NCBI RefSeq assembly: GCF_010091945.1
Contig: NZ_WVIE01000007.1
Location: forward strand, 62,001-126,000
DNA: 64,000 nucleotides
DNA from: Myxacorys almedinensis A
GTDB lineage: Bacteria; Cyanobacteriota; Cyanobacteriia; Leptolyngbyales; Leptolyngbyaceae
Direction: 5' to 3'
This document shows positions 41,877 through 48,893 of this stretch, piece by piece. Numbering within the stretch: the first letter of the stretch is position 1; each line of letters begins with the position of its first letter. Position numbers and translations under genes: made by a program. The notes beneath the pieces are model-generated. The model was given only the letters and a program-made list of their open reading frames with translations, searched no databases and was not told the DNA's origin.

Positions 41877-42476
41877 TCAGACCAAAGTTCTATCTTCACT
41901 CAGGTGAGGAGCATCTAGCCGAGCCGGAACATAAACCCGATCGACCCACTCATCGGTTGTCATCACTTGGCTGATCATCATTTGTTGAGCGACTAGGATC
42001 GAGCGGTGCATTTCTTCGCCCGTTACACTGCCCGCGCCGTTGCTGACGGGGAGCGTGCCCGTTGCATCCGAGAGAAATTCTACGGCAAAGTCTAAATGCA
42101 TGGCTTGCCGTGCCGTTGTGTCACAGCACATGTGGCTCATATAGCCTGCAATCACGACGGTCTCAATACCGTGCGATCGCAGCCAAGCTTCTAATTCGGT
42201 TCCCGTAAAGCAGCCGGGGTAGTTCTTCTCAAGCTGCAAATCAGAGTGGCGATCGCCCACTTCAGGATGCAATTGCCATTCGTAGCTATCTCGCTTGAAA
42301 AATGGAGCATCGTCGCCAGCAAACGTATGCTGCACTAGAATGATCGGCATATTTTGCTGAACCGCAACATCCATCACCCGGAGAATGTTACTGAGATGGT
42401 TTGATGGGTAAGAAATCGGCAGTTTCCCAACAAAATACTCGTTCTGAACGTCAATCACCAATAGCGCTCTTTTCAC
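41877..42476 (-). CDS. Isochorismatase-like cysteine hydrolase
   Basis: A 199-residue cytoplasmic hydrolase of the isochorismatase/nicotinamidase superfamily. The catalytic triad is complete: Asp9 in LLVIDVQNEYF, Lys84 in LEKNYPGCF, and Cys117 in AGYMSHMCCDTTAR. Family members hydrolyse amide or carbamoyl bonds (nicotinamide, N-carbamoylsarcosine, ureidoacrylate), and the exact substrate is not predictable. It lies about 170 bases downstream of the carbamoyltransferase-methyltransferase fusion on the same strand, which makes a carbamoylated or amidated substrate worth considering. Confidence 0.9.
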   Translation of the reverse strand: MKRALLVIDVQNEYFVGKLPISYPSNHLSNILRVMDVAVQQNMPIILVQHTFAGDDAPFFKRDSYEWQLHPEVGDRHSDLQLEKNYPGCFTGTELEAWLRSHGIETVVIAGYMSHMCCDTTARQAMHLDFAVEFLSDATGTLPVSNGAGSVTGEEMHRSILVAQQMMISQVMTTDEWVDRVYVPARLDAPHLSEDRTLV

Positions 42477-42650: not shown

Positions 42651-45600
42651 TCACCGCAGATAGGATGAGATGCATGTCGGCGTTGTTTTCGTCTGAAGCT
42701 CTGCAATACTTAGCCCTTCTGTAGGAGCCGGATCGTCTAAGCGGCGATTGCGACTGAGGTTGGGCGGCTCAGATGTAAGATGCAAAATTCCCTTGTAAAT
42801 TAGATCCAAGATCGAGTCTTGGTTAGTCGCATTGGAATAAGCAACCCATTTGGGCTGGAGTTGATTGATGTCTTGTAGTAAGCGATACATCTGTTCGCTG
42901 ATAGGGTAGGTTGTGAAATATGGGTTGTCTAGGGCAAACAACTCGATCTTGCGATCGCTGCTCCGAGGGCTAGTCTCTACCCGAAACCGAATATCAGGAG
43001 CCAACGATAAGAAACAATCGTGACTCTGTTCATCGTCGAGCAGTTGCCGTTGCTGAAAGTATTCTGAGATTTGCGAATGAATCGAGCACGCCGGATTGTG
43101 AATCGTTCGCGCGTAGTAGGAGCCTGTCTGAGACTCCTCGATCTGACAGATCAAAATGTAGCCAAAGTTGACCGCACTCAACCCCGCCTCATGGAAATTG
43201 TGTAACCACTGATCGAGTTCTGCGGTGTACTCTTCTGGCGTTTGATTGAAGGCGCTGTGGCAGTGCGGCACAGAGAACAAAATGTCATTGCGATCGGCGG
43301 TAGACAAGACCAACTGATGGGCCGCGCCACCGCGCCACCAGCGCTTAAGCTTTGCCTCGTATGCCGAAAGATTGACTAAATCAGTCACAATAAACAGCCG
43401 ACCGTGGGGTGCAAGATGATTTGCACTTTCTGAGATGATCCGAGCGAGAATGTCTTCGCCCGTTGCCCCGCCATCTCTAAATCGACAGTCGCGAGACGGG
43501 CTAGGCACAAACGGAGGATTCGCCAAAATCGTGTTGAAATAGCCAGAGGCTGCCTCATACAAGTCGCCAAGATGAAACCGAATGTTATCAATTCCGTTAA
43601 GTTGAGCATTAAATCGAGAAAAGCGAATAGCGCGTGGATTGATGTCAACGCTGAGCACTTCTCTCGCATATCGGCTGGCAACCAACCCCTGCACACCAGA
43701 GCCACAGCAAAGATCTAAAACGCGGCTCACGGTAGACTGAGGTGCCGTATGAACTAGACCTAAACTGTCCATTCCGATATACATGACCGGATCTTCGCTC
43801 AGTTCATCTTCTTCAAGCATCAGGTAGCGGTGATCGGTGGCAATATACAATCCCACCACATCCACAATATCCACTCGCGATGCCCAGTTTTCCCCCCGAC
43901 GGATCAGCAGCCCGATCTGACCAAGCAGAGAGAACAACTCCTCTCCAAATAGGGTTCGGAGTTTCAGTTCTGGTAGGGCACTCCGGAGTAGGAACAGCCG
44001 GATCAGATCAGCCAGGGCTGTTGTTGGCAGTCGATAGCGATCGTAATAGTGCAAGTAGGTCGGCTCAATCTGCTGCTGAGAGGTCACACCCAGCAATTGG
44101 CAGATGTTTGATTCAATATAGCCCGCTTGCTTGAGGCACAGGTAGAGCGATCGCAGGTGATGTCTGGCTGAGAAGCCCTCTTGCTCAAAAAACGCGAAGG
44201 TTTTTGCGGCAACCGTGGTTAGCGCAGAATCTGGATGCATCGGCTTTGAACTTGAGTGCTTCGGTTCTAGTCGATAAGAGCGCAGGTGTTGCTTTGCCCA
44301 ATCTATTCGTTGCTCAAACTCAAACTGAGTCAACCGCATCTCGACCCGCAGTTGCCCTAACCCATCTTTTGAAGCATTCAAAACGGCTAACACGAGCTTG
44401 ATTTCTTCAAAACTATAGCTAGAAGGCGGAACCTGCTGAGTGAGGTCTACTAACGATGAGCGACTTAACGGATCAAGCAGTAAGATGATGTCTCTTGAGA
44501 GTTTTGTCGAAAGCGGGCTGTAGAAAGGTGTTGCAGGAAAGAGAATGCTGGTTTCCTTGTACTGAGCGCCTTGCTCAGAGAGCATTTTCAATTCTTCTGA
44601 TGACCAAGGACAGTGGGTTGTTTCCCCAAAAAACAGCGCTCGATCGAGGGTGCCCATCAGGGCTTCGACGCTGGGCATTGGGCTAGGGAGTCCGTGAGGA
44701 AGCGGACTTTCGGTGACTTTATCCAAATGCTGTTCGTAAGTTAGTACAGGAACGTGACGCTTGGAAATCCAAAAATTTTCGATCGCTAGATAGTCGATGT
44801 CTGTTCCTAGAAAGGTTGCGATCGCTTCCAATGGCGTTTCTACAATCGGCTGCCCTGCAATATTAAAGCTGGTATTGAGCAGCACGGGGACACCCTGCCG
44901 TTCCTCGACCAACTTGTAGCAGAGCCGGTAGAAATAAGAATTATCTTGCTCGGTTACGGTTTGAACGCGCCCTGTTCCATCGGTGTGGGTGACTGCCGGA
45001 ATGCGATCGTAAAACTCTGGTTTAATGTCAGACACCAGCAGCATAAACGGGGCAGCAACGGGTTGTTCAAACACTTGAGCAACGGCTTCTAAGGGAATCA
45101 CCGGAGCAAAGGGGCGAAACGCCTCTCGAAACTTCACCCGTGCATTCAAGATATCTTTCATGTGCTTGAAGGTCGGATCTGCCATGATCGATCGATGCCC
45201 CAGCGCTCTGGGTCCATACTCTGCACCCCCTTCAAACCGAGTCACAATGCTGCCTTGCGCTAACGCTTTAGCACTGCGATCGAGCAGTTCATCGGGGGTC
45301 AATTCTTCTACCACAATCGACTCTTGAAAATGGTGGACAGCTTGGGCTACCTGATCACGGCTGTAGCTGCGCCCCAACGTTGCTTGCGTAAGTTTAACTC
45401 GCTTCTGACCGCCGCCTACCGTGTGATACGCCCACAGTGCACATCCGGCAGCAATTCCGCTATCTCCTGCTGCTGGAAAGATAAAAATATCGTCTAAGTC
45501 AAGCTGTTTGAGTAGCTCGTAATTGGCAACCGAATTTAGCCCAACTCCGCCTGCAATGCAGAGTTTTCGCAATCCAGTTTGTGCGATCGCCAACCCCACC

Positions 45601-46433
45601 ACATGCAGCAGCGCATCTTCTAATTCCTTCTGGACTTTGTAAGCCAAATCAACCAGGTAGGGACGCAGATAAGGTTTTCCTTCTCCGGTGTCATAGCGTT
45701 TTTCGAGAGCCGCTACTTCCAAGAAAATATCGTAGGCAGACATGCTGAGGCTATAGGAGTTCTCGATCGCGTGAATCCATCGATGCAGGTTTGGTTGCTC
45801 TCTGCCATAAGGCGCTAAGCCCATCAGTTTCCCGGCTTCAGCATGACGTACTTTATCGCTAATTCGCGTGACAAATCCAGCTTTGCGGGTGACATACTCA
45901 TACACAAATCCTAGGGTTGAGAGACCTGCGAGATGGGCGGGCACTAGCTCACTATGCAGTGTTGTGATCGAGTCGCCTCGACCCGTGTAGAGAGTATACG
46001 ATTCGGTTAGGTGTTCTGGCGTTGTGCTACCCGTTGCATCTACAGCCAAAATCAAGGCGTCATCAAATCCTGAAGTCCAGTAGGTTGAGTATGCATGAGC
46101 CAGATGATGACTGGGAATTCGCATTACCCTGTCGGTCATCTCTGCTGATAAGACCCGTCGCAAAATGTCGGGCGCATGATCATGCCCAGGCATATTGGCG
46201 GTGATAGTTGCTAGATCCTTTAAGCTAATGTTGCATGTGTCTAGGCAGTATCGCATCGCTTCTGCTGGGATTTGAATTTGGGATGCAACTCCTGGAGCAT
46301 GCAGCATGTAACCCGGACTAAATTTGTGACGATCGAGCCGCTCTTGCTCAATCGCTGCAACAATCTCACCATCCTTGACAATTGCGGCAGAGCGCTCATG
46401 TCCCAGATTAATTCCCATGTGATACTGTGTCAC
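42651..46433 (-). CDS. Carbamoyltransferase-methyltransferase fusion protein
   Basis: A 1260-residue cytoplasmic protein. Residues 1-560 are a NodU/CmcH/TobZ-type O-carbamoyltransferase: MGINLGHERSAAIV, the metal-binding His pair in SHHLAHAYSTYW (109-120), CIAGGVGLNS (292-301), GAEYGPRALGHRSIMADP (403-420), FREAFRPFAPVI (435-446) and PVLLNTSFN (516-524). Residues about 570-735 are unassigned. Residues about 750-1100 resemble a DUF7059-type helical region plus class I SAM methyltransferase, with motif I VLDLCCGSGVQG (905-916), SVDINPRAI (928-936) and NPPFVPSP (972-979). A further C-terminal region is unassigned. TobZ-type enzymes use carbamoyl phosphate and ATP. The expected product is a carbamoylated and methylated small molecule; the acceptor is unknown. 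Confidence 0.88.
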   Translation of the reverse strand: MTQYHMGINLGHERSAAIVKDGEIVAAIEQERLDRHKFSPGYMLHAPGVASQIQIPAEAMRYCLDTCNISLKDLATITANMPGHDHAPDILRRVLSAEMTDRVMRIPSHHLAHAYSTYWTSGFDDALILAVDATGSTTPEHLTESYTLYTGRGDSITTLHSELVPAHLAGLSTLGFVYEYVTRKAGFVTRISDKVRHAEAGKLMGLAPYGREQPNLHRWIHAIENSYSLSMSAYDIFLEVAALEKRYDTGEGKPYLRPYLVDLAYKVQKELEDALLHVVGLAIAQTGLRKLCIAGGVGLNSVANYELLKQLDLDDIFIFPAAGDSGIAAGCALWAYHTVGGGQKRVKLTQATLGRSYSRDQVAQAVHHFQESIVVEELTPDELLDRSAKALAQGSIVTRFEGGAEYGPRALGHRSIMADPTFKHMKDILNARVKFREAFRPFAPVIPLEAVAQVFEQPVAAPFMLLVSDIKPEFYDRIPAVTHTDGTGRVQTVTEQDNSYFYRLCYKLVEERQGVPVLLNTSFNIAGQPIVETPLEAIATFLGTDIDYLAIENFWISKRHVPVLTYEQHLDKVTESPLPHGLPSPMPSVEALMGTLDRALFFGETTHCPWSSEELKMLSEQGAQYKETSILFPATPFYSPLSTKLSRDIILLLDPLSRSSLVDLTQQVPPSSYSFEEIKLVLAVLNASKDGLGQLRVEMRLTQFEFEQRIDWAKQHLRSYRLEPKHSSSKPMHPDSALTTVAAKTFAFFEQEGFSARHHLRSLYLCLKQAGYIESNICQLLGVTSQQQIEPTYLHYYDRYRLPTTALADLIRLFLLRSALPELKLRTLFGEELFSLLGQIGLLIRRGENWASRVDIVDVVGLYIATDHRYLMLEEDELSEDPVMYIGMDSLGLVHTAPQSTVSRVLDLCCGSGVQGLVASRYAREVLSVDINPRAIRFSRFNAQLNGIDNIRFHLGDLYEAASGYFNTILANPPFVPSPSRDCRFRDGGATGEDILARIISESANHLAPHGRLFIVTDLVNLSAYEAKLKRWWRGGAAHQLVLSTADRNDILFSVPHCHSAFNQTPEEYTAELDQWLHNFHEAGLSAVNFGYILICQIEESQTGSYYARTIHNPACSIHSQISEYFQQRQLLDDEQSHDCFLSLAPDIRFRVETSPRSSDRKIELFALDNPYFTTYPISEQMYRLLQDINQLQPKWVAYSNATNQDSILDLIYKGILHLTSEPPNLSRNRRLDDPAPTEGLSIAELQTKTTPTCISSYLR

Positions 46434-46539: not shown

Positions 46540-47976
46540 TCAGTGATAGAGAGCGATTGGAATTTGAATGAGAAACTCAGTACCTTTGTTTAGGGTTGAT
46601 AAGCATTTCAAGACTCCACCGTGTCTTTCTACAATCATTTGATAGCTAATCGATAAGCCCAGCCCTGTCCCTTTACCGACCGGTTTTGTGGTAAAAAAAG
46701 GATCAAAAATTTGCTTCTGAGTCTCTTCGCTCATCCCCATGCCGTTATCGATAATGTGAATCGCGATGTGTTCTTCTGCAACGGGTTCTGTCCGAATCCG
46801 AATCGTAGGCGTGAACGTGGACTTTGAGTTTTGAGGACACGCTTCTGCTTCTTGAATGCACCGAGATATTACGGCATCGATCGCATTACTAATCAGGTTC
46901 ATAAACACTTGATTGAGCGGTCCGGCGTAACATTCAACTAAAGGTAGATCAGCGTATTCTTTAATAATTTGAATGACAGCATTGCTCTCTGTGCCCTTCA
47001 AGCGGTTCTGAAGAATCATCAGCGTGCTGTCGATGCCGTCGTGAATATTAACCGGTTTAATTTCTGCCTCGTCTAGCCGAGAAAAGTTTCTCAGTGACAA
47101 CACAATTTCGCGGATGCGTTCGGCTCCAACATTCATGGAGGTCATCAACTTTGGTAAATCTTCTAGCAAAAATGCCAAATCGATTCGTTCTAGTTCTACC
47201 TGAATTTCTGTTGGGGTTGGGTAGTGAACTTGGTAGAGATGGATCACATATGCTAACTCTTGAATGTATTCTTCGGCGTGGCTCAAATTGCCGTGAATAA
47301 AGTTGACGGGATTGTTAATTTCGTGGGCAATTCCAGCGACGAGTTGCCCCAAACTTGACATTTTTTCTGCATGTACCAGTTGAGTTTGAGTTTGTTTCAG
47401 TTCCTTTAAGGTTACTTCTAGCTGTTCAGCTTGTTGCTTCAATTTTTCTTGAGAATCTAAAAGGGTTGCTTCGGTTTGTTTGCGCTCAAGATTTTCGACC
47501 CGAAGCTGTTGAATTCTAAGTTGCAAGGCTTCATTTGCTTCTTTGAGAGCGGCTTGTGCGCGTTTGCGATCGCTAACATTTGTTAATGAGCCAGAGATCT
47601 CTCCTTGCTCTGCCGAGCGGGCTGACAACTCTAACCACACAATTTCTGCGGTTTGGTGATGAAATCGCAATTCTTGATTAGCCACAACTTGCTTATCAAG
47701 TAGTTGTGGTAATAGCTCTAGCCAAATCTCCCGATCCTCAGCGTGGAGAAAGTCGTCTAGGGAGCGGTCTAAGCACTCGGTAGAACTGTACCCTAAAGTT
47801 GCGCTCCAAGCTTTGTTGAGTAGCGTAAAATTGCCAGCGCGATCGCACTTAAATACAATTTCTCGCAAATTCTCAACTAGCTCTCGGTATCGCCGTTCTG
47901 ATTCTGAAAGCTGCTCAATCAAACGGTATTGAATCTGCGTGTGCAGTTCGTTACCTGCTAAAAATTCTGATGTCAT
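46540..47976 (-). CDS. PAS-domain sensor histidine kinase
   Basis: A 478-residue soluble kinase. A PAS domain spans about residues 28-140 (LREIVFKCDRAGNFTLLNKA, ATLGYSSTECL), followed by a long coiled coil (about 140-205), a HisKA-like domain with phospho-acceptor His in LGQLVAGIAHEINNPVNF, and a HATPase domain with NLISNAIDAV, DNGMGMSEE, FTTKPVGKGTGLGLSIS. No transmembrane segment and no response regulator gene is adjacent. It lies about 100 bases upstream of the carbamoyltransferase fusion on the same strand and may sense a cue controlling that pathway. Confidence 0.92.
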   Translation of the reverse strand: MTSEFLAGNELHTQIQYRLIEQLSESERRYRELVENLREIVFKCDRAGNFTLLNKAWSATLGYSSTECLDRSLDDFLHAEDREIWLELLPQLLDKQVVANQELRFHHQTAEIVWLELSARSAEQGEISGSLTNVSDRKRAQAALKEANEALQLRIQQLRVENLERKQTEATLLDSQEKLKQQAEQLEVTLKELKQTQTQLVHAEKMSSLGQLVAGIAHEINNPVNFIHGNLSHAEEYIQELAYVIHLYQVHYPTPTEIQVELERIDLAFLLEDLPKLMTSMNVGAERIREIVLSLRNFSRLDEAEIKPVNIHDGIDSTLMILQNRLKGTESNAVIQIIKEYADLPLVECYAGPLNQVFMNLISNAIDAVISRCIQEAEACPQNSKSTFTPTIRIRTEPVAEEHIAIHIIDNGMGMSEETQKQIFDPFFTTKPVGKGTGLGLSISYQMIVERHGGVLKCLSTLNKGTEFLIQIPIALYH

Positions 47977-48278: not shown

Positions 48279-48893
48279 TTAAGCAGGAACCACAACTTCT
48301 AACGCATTGAGCAACTCTATGTGAGTCATCACCTCTGCGTACAATGCAAAAATACTGTTGCAGTAAAACCCTTGTTCAAGAACAGTCCGGGCTGATGTGC
48401 AGTCAGACAAAACAGTAACTTGATACCCTTTTTCACGAGCCGCCCGCCCTGTTGAGTCAATACAGATAGACGTAACTGCCCCTGCCAGCACAATATTTTT
48501 AATGCCATTTTGCTGAAGAACTTCTTGCAAATTGGTATTAATAAATGCATTGAATCCCCGCTTGCCAGGAACTTCTAAAATGCGATCAGCAAAGGGCTGA
48601 ATTTCAGCGATCGTTTCTGAACCAGATTGCCCAACCTGAAATGCACCGACTTCTTTGATTGTCTTTAGAATGCCAACCGGCTCGATTAACTCTTCGTAGT
48701 TAGGTGTGAAAAAAATAGGAGTTGTAACAATCAATGCTGGAGTGAGCGCAAGACACTCTAGCAAATGAACAGTATTAGCAACCACATTAGTGACTCTAGA
48801 CGATTCCTCAATCACCCCATGCAAGATTCCTTCAGATGAGAAGTAATCGTTTTGATAGCCAATTAAGACGAGCGCAGTTTGTTCAGGTTTCAT
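48279..48893 (-). CDS. Isochorismatase-like cysteine hydrolase with altered active site
   Basis: A 204-residue member of the isochorismatase superfamily. The nucleophile Cys144 is present in LAGAVTSICIDSTGRAA and the lysine is likely Lys111 in VPGKRGFNAF. The usual Asp of the VIDMQND motif is replaced by Gly12 (LVLIGYQNDYF). Homologous hydrolases use that Asp as base, so activity may be altered or lost; a subgroup with this change may exist. It is the first gene of a four-gene same-strand block leading to the carbamoyltransferase fusion, although gaps of 300, 106 and 174 bases leave the operon unproven. Confidence 0.85.
   Translation of the reverse strand: MKPEQTALVLIGYQNDYFSSEGILHGVIEESSRVTNVVANTVHLLECLALTPALIVTTPIFFTPNYEELIEPVGILKTIKEVGAFQVGQSGSETIAEIQPFADRILEVPGKRGFNAFINTNLQEVLQQNGIKNIVLAGAVTSICIDSTGRAAREKGYQVTVLSDCTSARTVLEQGFYCNSIFALYAEVMTHIELLNALEVVVPA

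Follow-up and report, generated by a model that had tools for sequence, protein, structure and literature searches.

The window analyzed here is a stretch of 64,000 nucleotides from Myxacorys almedinensis A (assembly GCF_010091945.1, contig NZ_WVIE01000007.1, positions 62,001–126,000). At 42651–46433 on its minus strand, which carries all features described below, is a gene encoding a 1260-amino acid fusion protein, its limits assigned from a GTG start, with GAGGAG 9 nucleotides upstream, and from relatives. The protein has four parts: a carbamoyltransferase, a winged helix resembling the recognition elements (RREs) of ribosomally synthesized and post-translationally modified peptides (RiPPs), an N-methyltransferase, and a linker with a C-terminal tail. 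Pfam places Carbam_trans_N (104–333) and Carbam_trans_C (388–558) above their cut-offs, as well as MTS (893–1018, 71.5 bits, cut-off 23). A preliminary description of this DNA had proposed the carbamoyltransferase-methyltransferase fusion, with the caution that two adjacent genes might have been misassembled. The fusion is genuine: it is carried by 13 loci and by further genomes, and because relatives in many genomes have the same architecture, misassembly is ruled out. Motif I (VLDLCCGSG, 905–913) and NPPF (972–975) had been positioned correctly; the label DUF7059-like just passes in relative L163 (27.3 bits, cut-off 27) and is below threshold in the window protein (805–850, 19.3 bits). The only other open reading frame (ORF) of at least 700 amino acids in the window encodes a 991-amino acid proline-utilization PutA protein, so the window has no polyketide or peptide synthetase of the usual size, as had been noted. 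Literature searches that largely excluded subscription full texts found no published description of this architecture or of the tail, nor a characterized enzyme with the carbamoyltransferase-methyltransferase arrangement, again in keeping with the preliminary description.

The first 560 amino acids (44754–46433) constitute a class III carbamoyltransferase of the NodU/TobZ/GdmN type, as judged from Pfam (PF02543, 112.9 bits, cut-off 24; PF16861, 210 bits, cut-off 27), from PDB sequence matches (7xb6, titled 'Carbamoyltransferase', NovN, GdmN, and TobZ; E 2e-71 to 8e-61), and from a ligand alignment with GdmN. The iron ligands of GdmN are H133, H137, D156, and D333 (PMC9633730). All four are kept in the window protein as the predicted ligands H109, H113, D132, and D324, which are near-invariant (≥90%) in family alignment A1, and the domain should be active by this criterion. 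The likeness to TobZ, GdmN, and NovN is confined to the N-terminal 560 residues with the iron-ligand positions, and none of these enzymes matches the last 700 residues. They carbamoylate antibiotic hydroxyls, an acceptor class that differs from the peptide tail proposed below.

The region that follows, unassigned in the preliminary description, holds the RRE-like winged helix, itself a suggestive assignment, and the N-terminal part of an N-methyltransferase of the AerE/GenN type. This methyltransferase module (amino acids ~753–1111, 43101–44177) comprises the DUF7059-like part and MTS. Structural searches used a predicted 700-residue model of amino acids 561–1260 (mean predicted local distance difference test score, pLDDT, 80.4). 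Foldseek matched it to GenN (E 4e-19) and AerE (E 2e-16), followed by a drop to 1e-8. VIA-align gave Z 28.1–28.2 for AerE over 341–347 residues and Z 27.3–28.1 for GenN, with the next family at Z 15.5. Model residues 193–551 (amino acids 753–1111) span AerE almost end to end, and by predicted fold the module is a complete AerE/GenN-type N-methyltransferase. GenN (5u4t and others) is also the best PDB sequence match of amino acids 561–1260, and 9l4q, with the PDB title 'carbamoyl N-methyltransferase', is among the structural matches.

AerE adds methyl groups to the side-chain amides of Asn residues in a ribosomal peptide precursor (PMC11285071). In the alignment register, amino acids 883–1020 of the window protein correspond to AerE 135–282, so that Y885 and D889 (43767–43781) are the counterparts of AerE Y137 and D141, and N972, the first residue of NPPF (43509–43520), that of AerE N231. 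The AerE mutants Y137F, D141A, and N231A are named in PDB titles, from which we take these residues to be catalytic in AerE. Scored against profile A2, wild-type AerE reached 49.9 bits and the mutants 47.6 (Y137F), 46.5 (D141A), and 45.9 (N231A), drops of 2.3, 3.4, and 4.0 bits, respectively; the alignment of the D141A chain to the profile also loses its first block. As the mutant chains score lower, Y137, D141, and N231 match conserved profile positions, which by register are Y885, D889, and N972. The corresponding A2 positions (Y325, D329, and N412) are invariant in 25 of 25 rows. AerE, the Asn amide N-methyltransferase of aeronamide, thus resembles the module in its whole-length fold and at these three residues, but is a free-standing 384-residue chain with a separate precursor as substrate. 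GenN, the gentamicin N-methyltransferase, is equally close in fold, but is free-standing and acts on an aminoglycoside. Among methyltransferase relatives without the tail, eight from the phylum of genome G391 (L193–L197, L199, L201, and L204) carry the motif PVMYLG.D[ST], and several of these have long Pro/Ala-rich C-terminal extensions in place of the tail.

The winged helix between the two enzymes (amino acids 645–727, 44253–44501) has a β3-α3 arrangement in predicted model mae7499ecced7 (model numbering: strands 88–91, 98–102, and 110–112; helices 114–125, 128–138, and 142–158), and a possible RRE was suspected from this secondary structure before the structural search. No Pfam or NCBIfam match was found for amino acids 621–780. 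In a second look with VIA-align, in which 927 chains were realigned, the top three were all RREs with PDB titles naming a bound leader peptide: the lasso peptide B1 protein 6jx3_B (Z 7.0, 77 aligned of 85 residues) and two chains of TbiB1 (5v1u_A, Z 6.8, and 5v1v_A, Z 6.7). Below these were DNA-binding winged helices (Z ≤5.8) and PqqD (Z 4.8), and then 5wgg/5why (Z 4.5), which we take to be CteB, TigE (Z 4.3), ThcOx (Z 3.6), and SuiB (Z 3.2), these four matches presumably being to RRE domains. The predicted structure is thus suggestive of an RRE-like, peptide-gripping type of domain. A survey describes RREs fused to PF02543 carbamoyltransferases (PMC12710340), so that from what it reports the pairing is not new in itself. 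Directly before the domain, the sequence KETS (amino acids 626–629, 44547–44558) is invariant in 22 of 22 rows. A second β3-α3 element, recognized from secondary structure of the predicted model, occurs at amino acids ~1148–1213 (42795–42992); considered as a candidate second RRE, it has no profile match to the first.

The protein ends in a hypervariable linker (amino acids ~1215–1247, 42693–42791), delimited by comparing cyanobacterial with other sequences, and the invariant C-terminal tail KTTPTCISSYLR (42654–42689), for which alignment and pattern searches give the family pattern KTTPTC[ILVM]S[SAN]YL. KTTPTC followed by I/L/V/M, S, S/A, Y, and L occurs in all 27 sequences of a fixed locus list, three of which are broken genes. 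Four more loci (L191, L192, L211, and L212), with N allowed at the S/A position, bring the total to 31 of 31 sequences that reach the C-terminus. Left out of this count were two loci cut by contig ends (L009 and L013), an N-terminal piece (L223), and duplicates (L001, L016, L017, L142–L157, L162, L163, L190, and L210). When 13 cyanobacterial sequences are compared with 10 others, overall identity is 0.50, falling to 0.30 for amino acids 1110–1214 and to 0.20 for amino acids 1215–1246, whereas nine of the 11 tail positions have an identity of 1.0 in every pair. Synonymous variation is seen at every tail codon position (at least two codons each), which argues for selection on the peptide and rules out conservation of the tail merely as near-copies. 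Scored as a 10-residue segment, the tail ranks 56 of 1252 in conservation, owing to a single hydrophobic position that differs throughout; the 25 highest-ranked segments lie in the carbamoyltransferase and methyltransferase motif regions.

The tail is restricted to the fused family. It occurs in none of 26 methyltransferase frames lacking the carbamoyltransferase motif, frames being counted when they hold NPPF, NPPY, or TTPTC; 13 loci (12 methyltransferase hits and L223) gave none. In two of the 26 (L193 and L201) the frame extends up to the 3' boundary of the locus, and a third (L196) is interrupted by a stop, so that their true ends lie out of view. Absence of the carbamoyltransferase in weaker hits was judged by motif within the loci and, in five, by Pfam; the larger tail-less relatives L197 and L209 have no carbamoyltransferase by Pfam. 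When the coding pattern of the tail was searched in 16 genomes, 14 matches were obtained, one in each of 14 genomes and always at the end of the fusion gene. The two genomes without a match (G392 and G396) have a fusion gene cut by a contig end. Within the cyanobacterial family (123 genomes), the pattern with one position free gave 12 matches in 12 genomes, and 11 of these matches are the fusion gene. The twelfth is antisense, within a 298-amino acid ORF of L238 that appears to encode a sulfotransferase, and a reversed-pattern control also gave one match.

By pattern, then, no separate precursor peptide with the same core occurs in the 16 genomes or the 123 family genomes. These results bear on the idea that the RRE-like domain recognizes a separate peptide or protein in trans and that the tail of the enzyme is a pseudosubstrate or autoinhibitor. 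With the pattern found once per genome and always at the end of the fusion gene in the 14 genomes with a match, and with 11 of the 12 family matches being that gene, we consider recognition in trans very improbable. An encapsulin cargo tag was rejected as well, PF04454 being present in none of the 16 genomes, a search that did not extend to type 2 encapsulins.

It is quite possible, if somewhat short of probable, that the protein is a self-contained peptide-modifying enzyme that carbamoylates, and then N-methylates, its own C-terminal tail. The tail may be its own substrate because a flexible invariant peptide is combined here with an RRE-like domain, a carbamoyltransferase for which a peptide Lys has precedent as acceptor, and an N-methyltransferase of the peptide-amide type. 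That precedent is the NodU-like carbamoyltransferase StdF (PMC13174530). The RRE-like domain would grip the region just before the tail, and the carbamoyltransferase would convert carbamoyl phosphate and ATP to carbamoyl-AMP and transfer the carbamoyl moiety to one of the tail's side chains. Our first guess, following the example of StdF, is the invariant Lys, with Thr, Ser, Tyr, and Cys as alternatives. The AerE-like methyltransferase would then N-methylate an amide-type nitrogen, most economically that of the newly added -CONH2. We guess at the carbamoyl nitrogen by analogy, since AerE methylates -CONH2 and, by the title of 9l4q, a carbamoyl N-methyltransferase exists. The modified KTTPTC[ILVM]S[SAN]YL might be cut off by an unlinked protease to give a RiPP-type product, or be kept as a functional modification. 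While the carbamoyltransferase and methyltransferase domains, the key-residue matches, and the invariance and restriction of the tail come from computation, and the RRE is a suggestion, we infer the acceptor, the order of steps, the methylation of the carbamoyl nitrogen, the release, and the role of the product. Sequential or joint tailoring, as put forward in the preliminary description, appears plausible. The free small-molecule acceptor envisaged there fares less well, as the invariant tail suggests a peptide, probably the protein's own; a sugar or metabolite persists as a rival, with TobZ and GenN both acting on aminoglycosides.

Several points weigh against modification of the tail. RiPP cores usually vary among species, and this tail is almost fixed. 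The tail is undocked in the predicted model (pLDDT ~41), and modification is predicted from the parts of the protein and their conservation, as is activity itself. The Tyr/Asp pair occurs also in several tail-less methyltransferase relatives, and therefore marks the methyltransferase family rather than the fusion or a tail substrate. Foldseek gave nothing significant for the middle domain (best E 1.8), and its Z of 7.0 to an RRE is, according to the tool, a level often reached by models without a clear match and is weak alone. PqqD (PF05402) had no Pfam match in the window protein or the relatives scanned, nor did hhalign match alignment A6 to PqqD, represented by only four sequences; as RREs are described as divergent in sequence, the lack of a PqqD profile match is not decisive for the fold. 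Among the loci compared by BLAST, whose neighbors were partly annotated, the fusion gene has no conserved protease or exporter next to it. Finally, GenN, the other top methyltransferase match, acts on aminoglycosides, so that a sugar would suit the enzymes just as well as acceptor.

The last point leads to the main rival assignment, in which a sugar or other metabolite is carbamoylated and N-methylated while the tail serves for docking or partner binding, or helps to complete the active site of a dimer. The carbamoyltransferase does match NovN, GdmN, and TobZ, the GenN structures with aminoglycosides are those at Z 27.3–28.1, and a gene that stands mostly alone outside cyanobacteria could serve a widespread metabolite. 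Even so, we regard a small-molecule acceptor as rather unlikely: it leaves unexplained the RRE-like domain, itself suggestive, and a near-fixed 11-mer that includes Lys and Cys and follows a free linker, and no gene of polyketide or peptide synthetase size is present in the window (the other loci were compared by BLAST, with no search for sugar genes).

The invariant Cys raises another idea, a carrier arm, in which the tail Cys (or Lys) transiently takes up the carbamoyl group, as HypE does, and swings to the methyltransferase or another acceptor. A precedent is HypF, which uses carbamoyl-AMP to carbamoylate the thiol of the C-terminal Cys in HypE (PMC9633730), and the tail Cys is invariant in 31 of 31 sequences on a tail that is disordered in the model. 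A carrier arm is nevertheless improbable, as it needs just Cys and some context, yet the fixed residues also include Lys, three Thr, Pro, Ser, Tyr, and Leu; moreover, the tail Cys is not terminal, and the carbamoyltransferase is of class III (NodU/TobZ-like) rather than HypF. HypF/HypE thus resembles the fusion in delivering carbamoyl to the C-terminal end of a protein (PMC9633730), but differs in carbamoyltransferase class, in a terminal Cys acceptor, and in having no methyltransferase.

Returning to modification of the protein's own tail, the closest parallel in organization is with the fused borosins, in which a methyltransferase modifies the C-terminal core of its own polypeptide (PMC11395268, PMC11285071). 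As described there, OphMA and the type I–III enzymes likewise unite methyltransferase, binding domain, and C-terminal core in one self-modifying polypeptide. The window protein has an invariant tail at the enzyme's end, in a putative core role, but differs in its class I methyltransferase of the MTS/AerE type with NPPF, its added carbamoyltransferase, and its near-invariant tail. The borosin methyltransferase has the tetrapyrrole-methylase fold, and no Pfam match to tetrapyrrole methylase was found in the 1260-amino acid protein up to E 1. StdF, from the std RiPP cluster, shares the NodU-like carbamoyltransferase and makes homocitrulline from a peptide Lys, but carries an S8/S53 peptidase domain, and its substrate is a precursor distinct from the enzyme, StdA; the available text of its description mentions no methyltransferase (PMC13174530). 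In the crocagin pathway, a RiPP is reported to receive both carbamoylation (by CgnI) and N-methylation (by CgnL), but from separate proteins, on a separate precursor (CgnA), and with methylation of the N-terminus; the nearest structures to CgnL are CcbJ and KedS8 (PMC10070186). Self-modifying precursor enzymes are thus known, and by its sequence the fusion appears to combine parts not seen together before within the literature searched.

Relatives that are ~45–75% identical occur in Cyanobacteria, Verrucomicrobiota, Planctomycetota, Pseudomonadota, and one Myxococcota metagenome-assembled genome (MAG). A scan of genome contigs yielded 13 fusion relatives (49–75% identity), 10 of which match residues 1–1259 or 1–1260; the other three (L009, L012, and L013) are truncated at contig ends. 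Their hosts are Dulcicalothrix, Verrucomicrobiota, Planctomycetota, gammaproteobacteria, other Pseudomonadota, and a 'deltaproteobacterium' MAG, labeled Myxococcota by the tree tool. In cyanobacteria the fusion is patchy: it occurs in 3 of 386 genomes of the phylum, 72 other matching genomes having the carbamoyltransferase alone or, in G044, the methyltransferase part alone. One cyanobacterial family has it in 15 of 217 genomes (12 intact and 3 broken). Outside cyanobacteria, where hits were counted if they extended to the end of the profile or query, the phylum of G387 has it in 1 of 288 genomes (G387 alone; another four match only a methyltransferase part), the class of G393 in 2 of 274 (G393 and G1051), the phylum of G391 in 3 of 372 (G391, G1163, and G1329), and the phylum of G389 in 3 of 282 (G389, G1719, and G1707, the last split over two contigs). 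In a tree of 28 rows, whose deepest joins are unsure owing to the long branches of L177 and L230, the cyanobacterial sequences form one clade (96/94), and Verrucomicrobiota and gammaproteobacteria need two changes each; on that account the fusion gene has probably moved between phyla. Of 90 confirmed relatives on viral contigs, 80 were kept, all of which match only within query residues 4–560, the carbamoyltransferase part, and none of 350 plasmid records covers 80% of the 1260-amino acid query. The three broken cyanobacterial copies still have the tail at their surviving ends. L174 (in G447) has a stop and missing parts, L175 (G450) has a foreign 453-amino acid ORF between kinase and remnant, and L176 (G557) is a 151-amino acid remnant.

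A broader proposal, which we put forward as tentative and regard as doubtful, is a one-gene RiPP class whose single polypeptide would unite recognition domain, carbamoyltransferase, amide N-methyltransferase, and core, produce a near-fixed N-methylcarbamoyl peptide, and have spread horizontally over at least five phyla. Cores are also fixed for pyrroloquinoline quinone (PQQ) and mycofactocin, and by analogy the product here would more likely be a cofactor, metallophore, or signal that is conserved than an antibiotic that varies. Were the proposal true, it would join two modifications that are rare on ribosomal peptides, supply a ready-made cassette for placing carbamoyl and N-methylcarbamoyl groups on peptides, and add a third chemistry among self-modifying precursor proteins, which besides borosins include the plant burpitides. 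A peptide fixed over five phyla would further imply an undiscovered shared small molecule. The tail motif offers a search key for further members.

Upstream of the fusion gene are a PAS-domain sensor histidine kinase (46540–47976) and an isochorismatase-fold partner (48279–48893), assigned by Pfam and synteny. The isochorismatase-fold protein, the kinase, and the fusion gene follow each other on the same strand in the window, an order shared by all 12 intact cyanobacterial loci compared. The divergent L177 has an isochorismatase ortholog (62% identity) and a kinase (26%) adjoining its fusion gene in rearranged order, and in the planctomycete G392 the pair is side by side on a contig other than that of the fusion gene; the kinases of G392 and L177 are more distant (only 26–27% identity). 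The isochorismatase-fold partner is present at ≥60% identity in 5 of 16 genomes (the window's own, G336, G386, G392, and G1051). As the partners adjoin the fusion gene only in cyanobacteria and L177, they are not needed for its basic function everywhere. Outside cyanobacteria, BLAST between loci found no neighbor conserved across phyla apart from these partners, which L177 and G392 have; such a lack is compatible with a one-gene system. Close relatives have common neighbors (L004/L005, L007/L015, and L010/L011), and a few large common gene families recur near the fusion (e.g., in L004, L005, and L015). A second isochorismatase-family gene (41877–42476), directly downstream of the fusion gene, has no counterpart beside the other cyanobacterial copies compared.

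Enzymes of the isochorismatase fold use a catalytic Asp together with a Lys and a Cys. The conserved partner reads LIGYQNDYF, as compared with VIDVQNEYF in the second isochorismatase of the window, and has Gly at the canonical Asp position in all seven orthologs aligned (the window, L003, L046, L047, L165, L177, and L183, with L184 and L185 left out). The Lys (in GKRG) and the Cys are kept in the same seven. As Gly replaces the usual catalytic Asp, its sequence suggests that the partner may not be an ordinary hydrolase.

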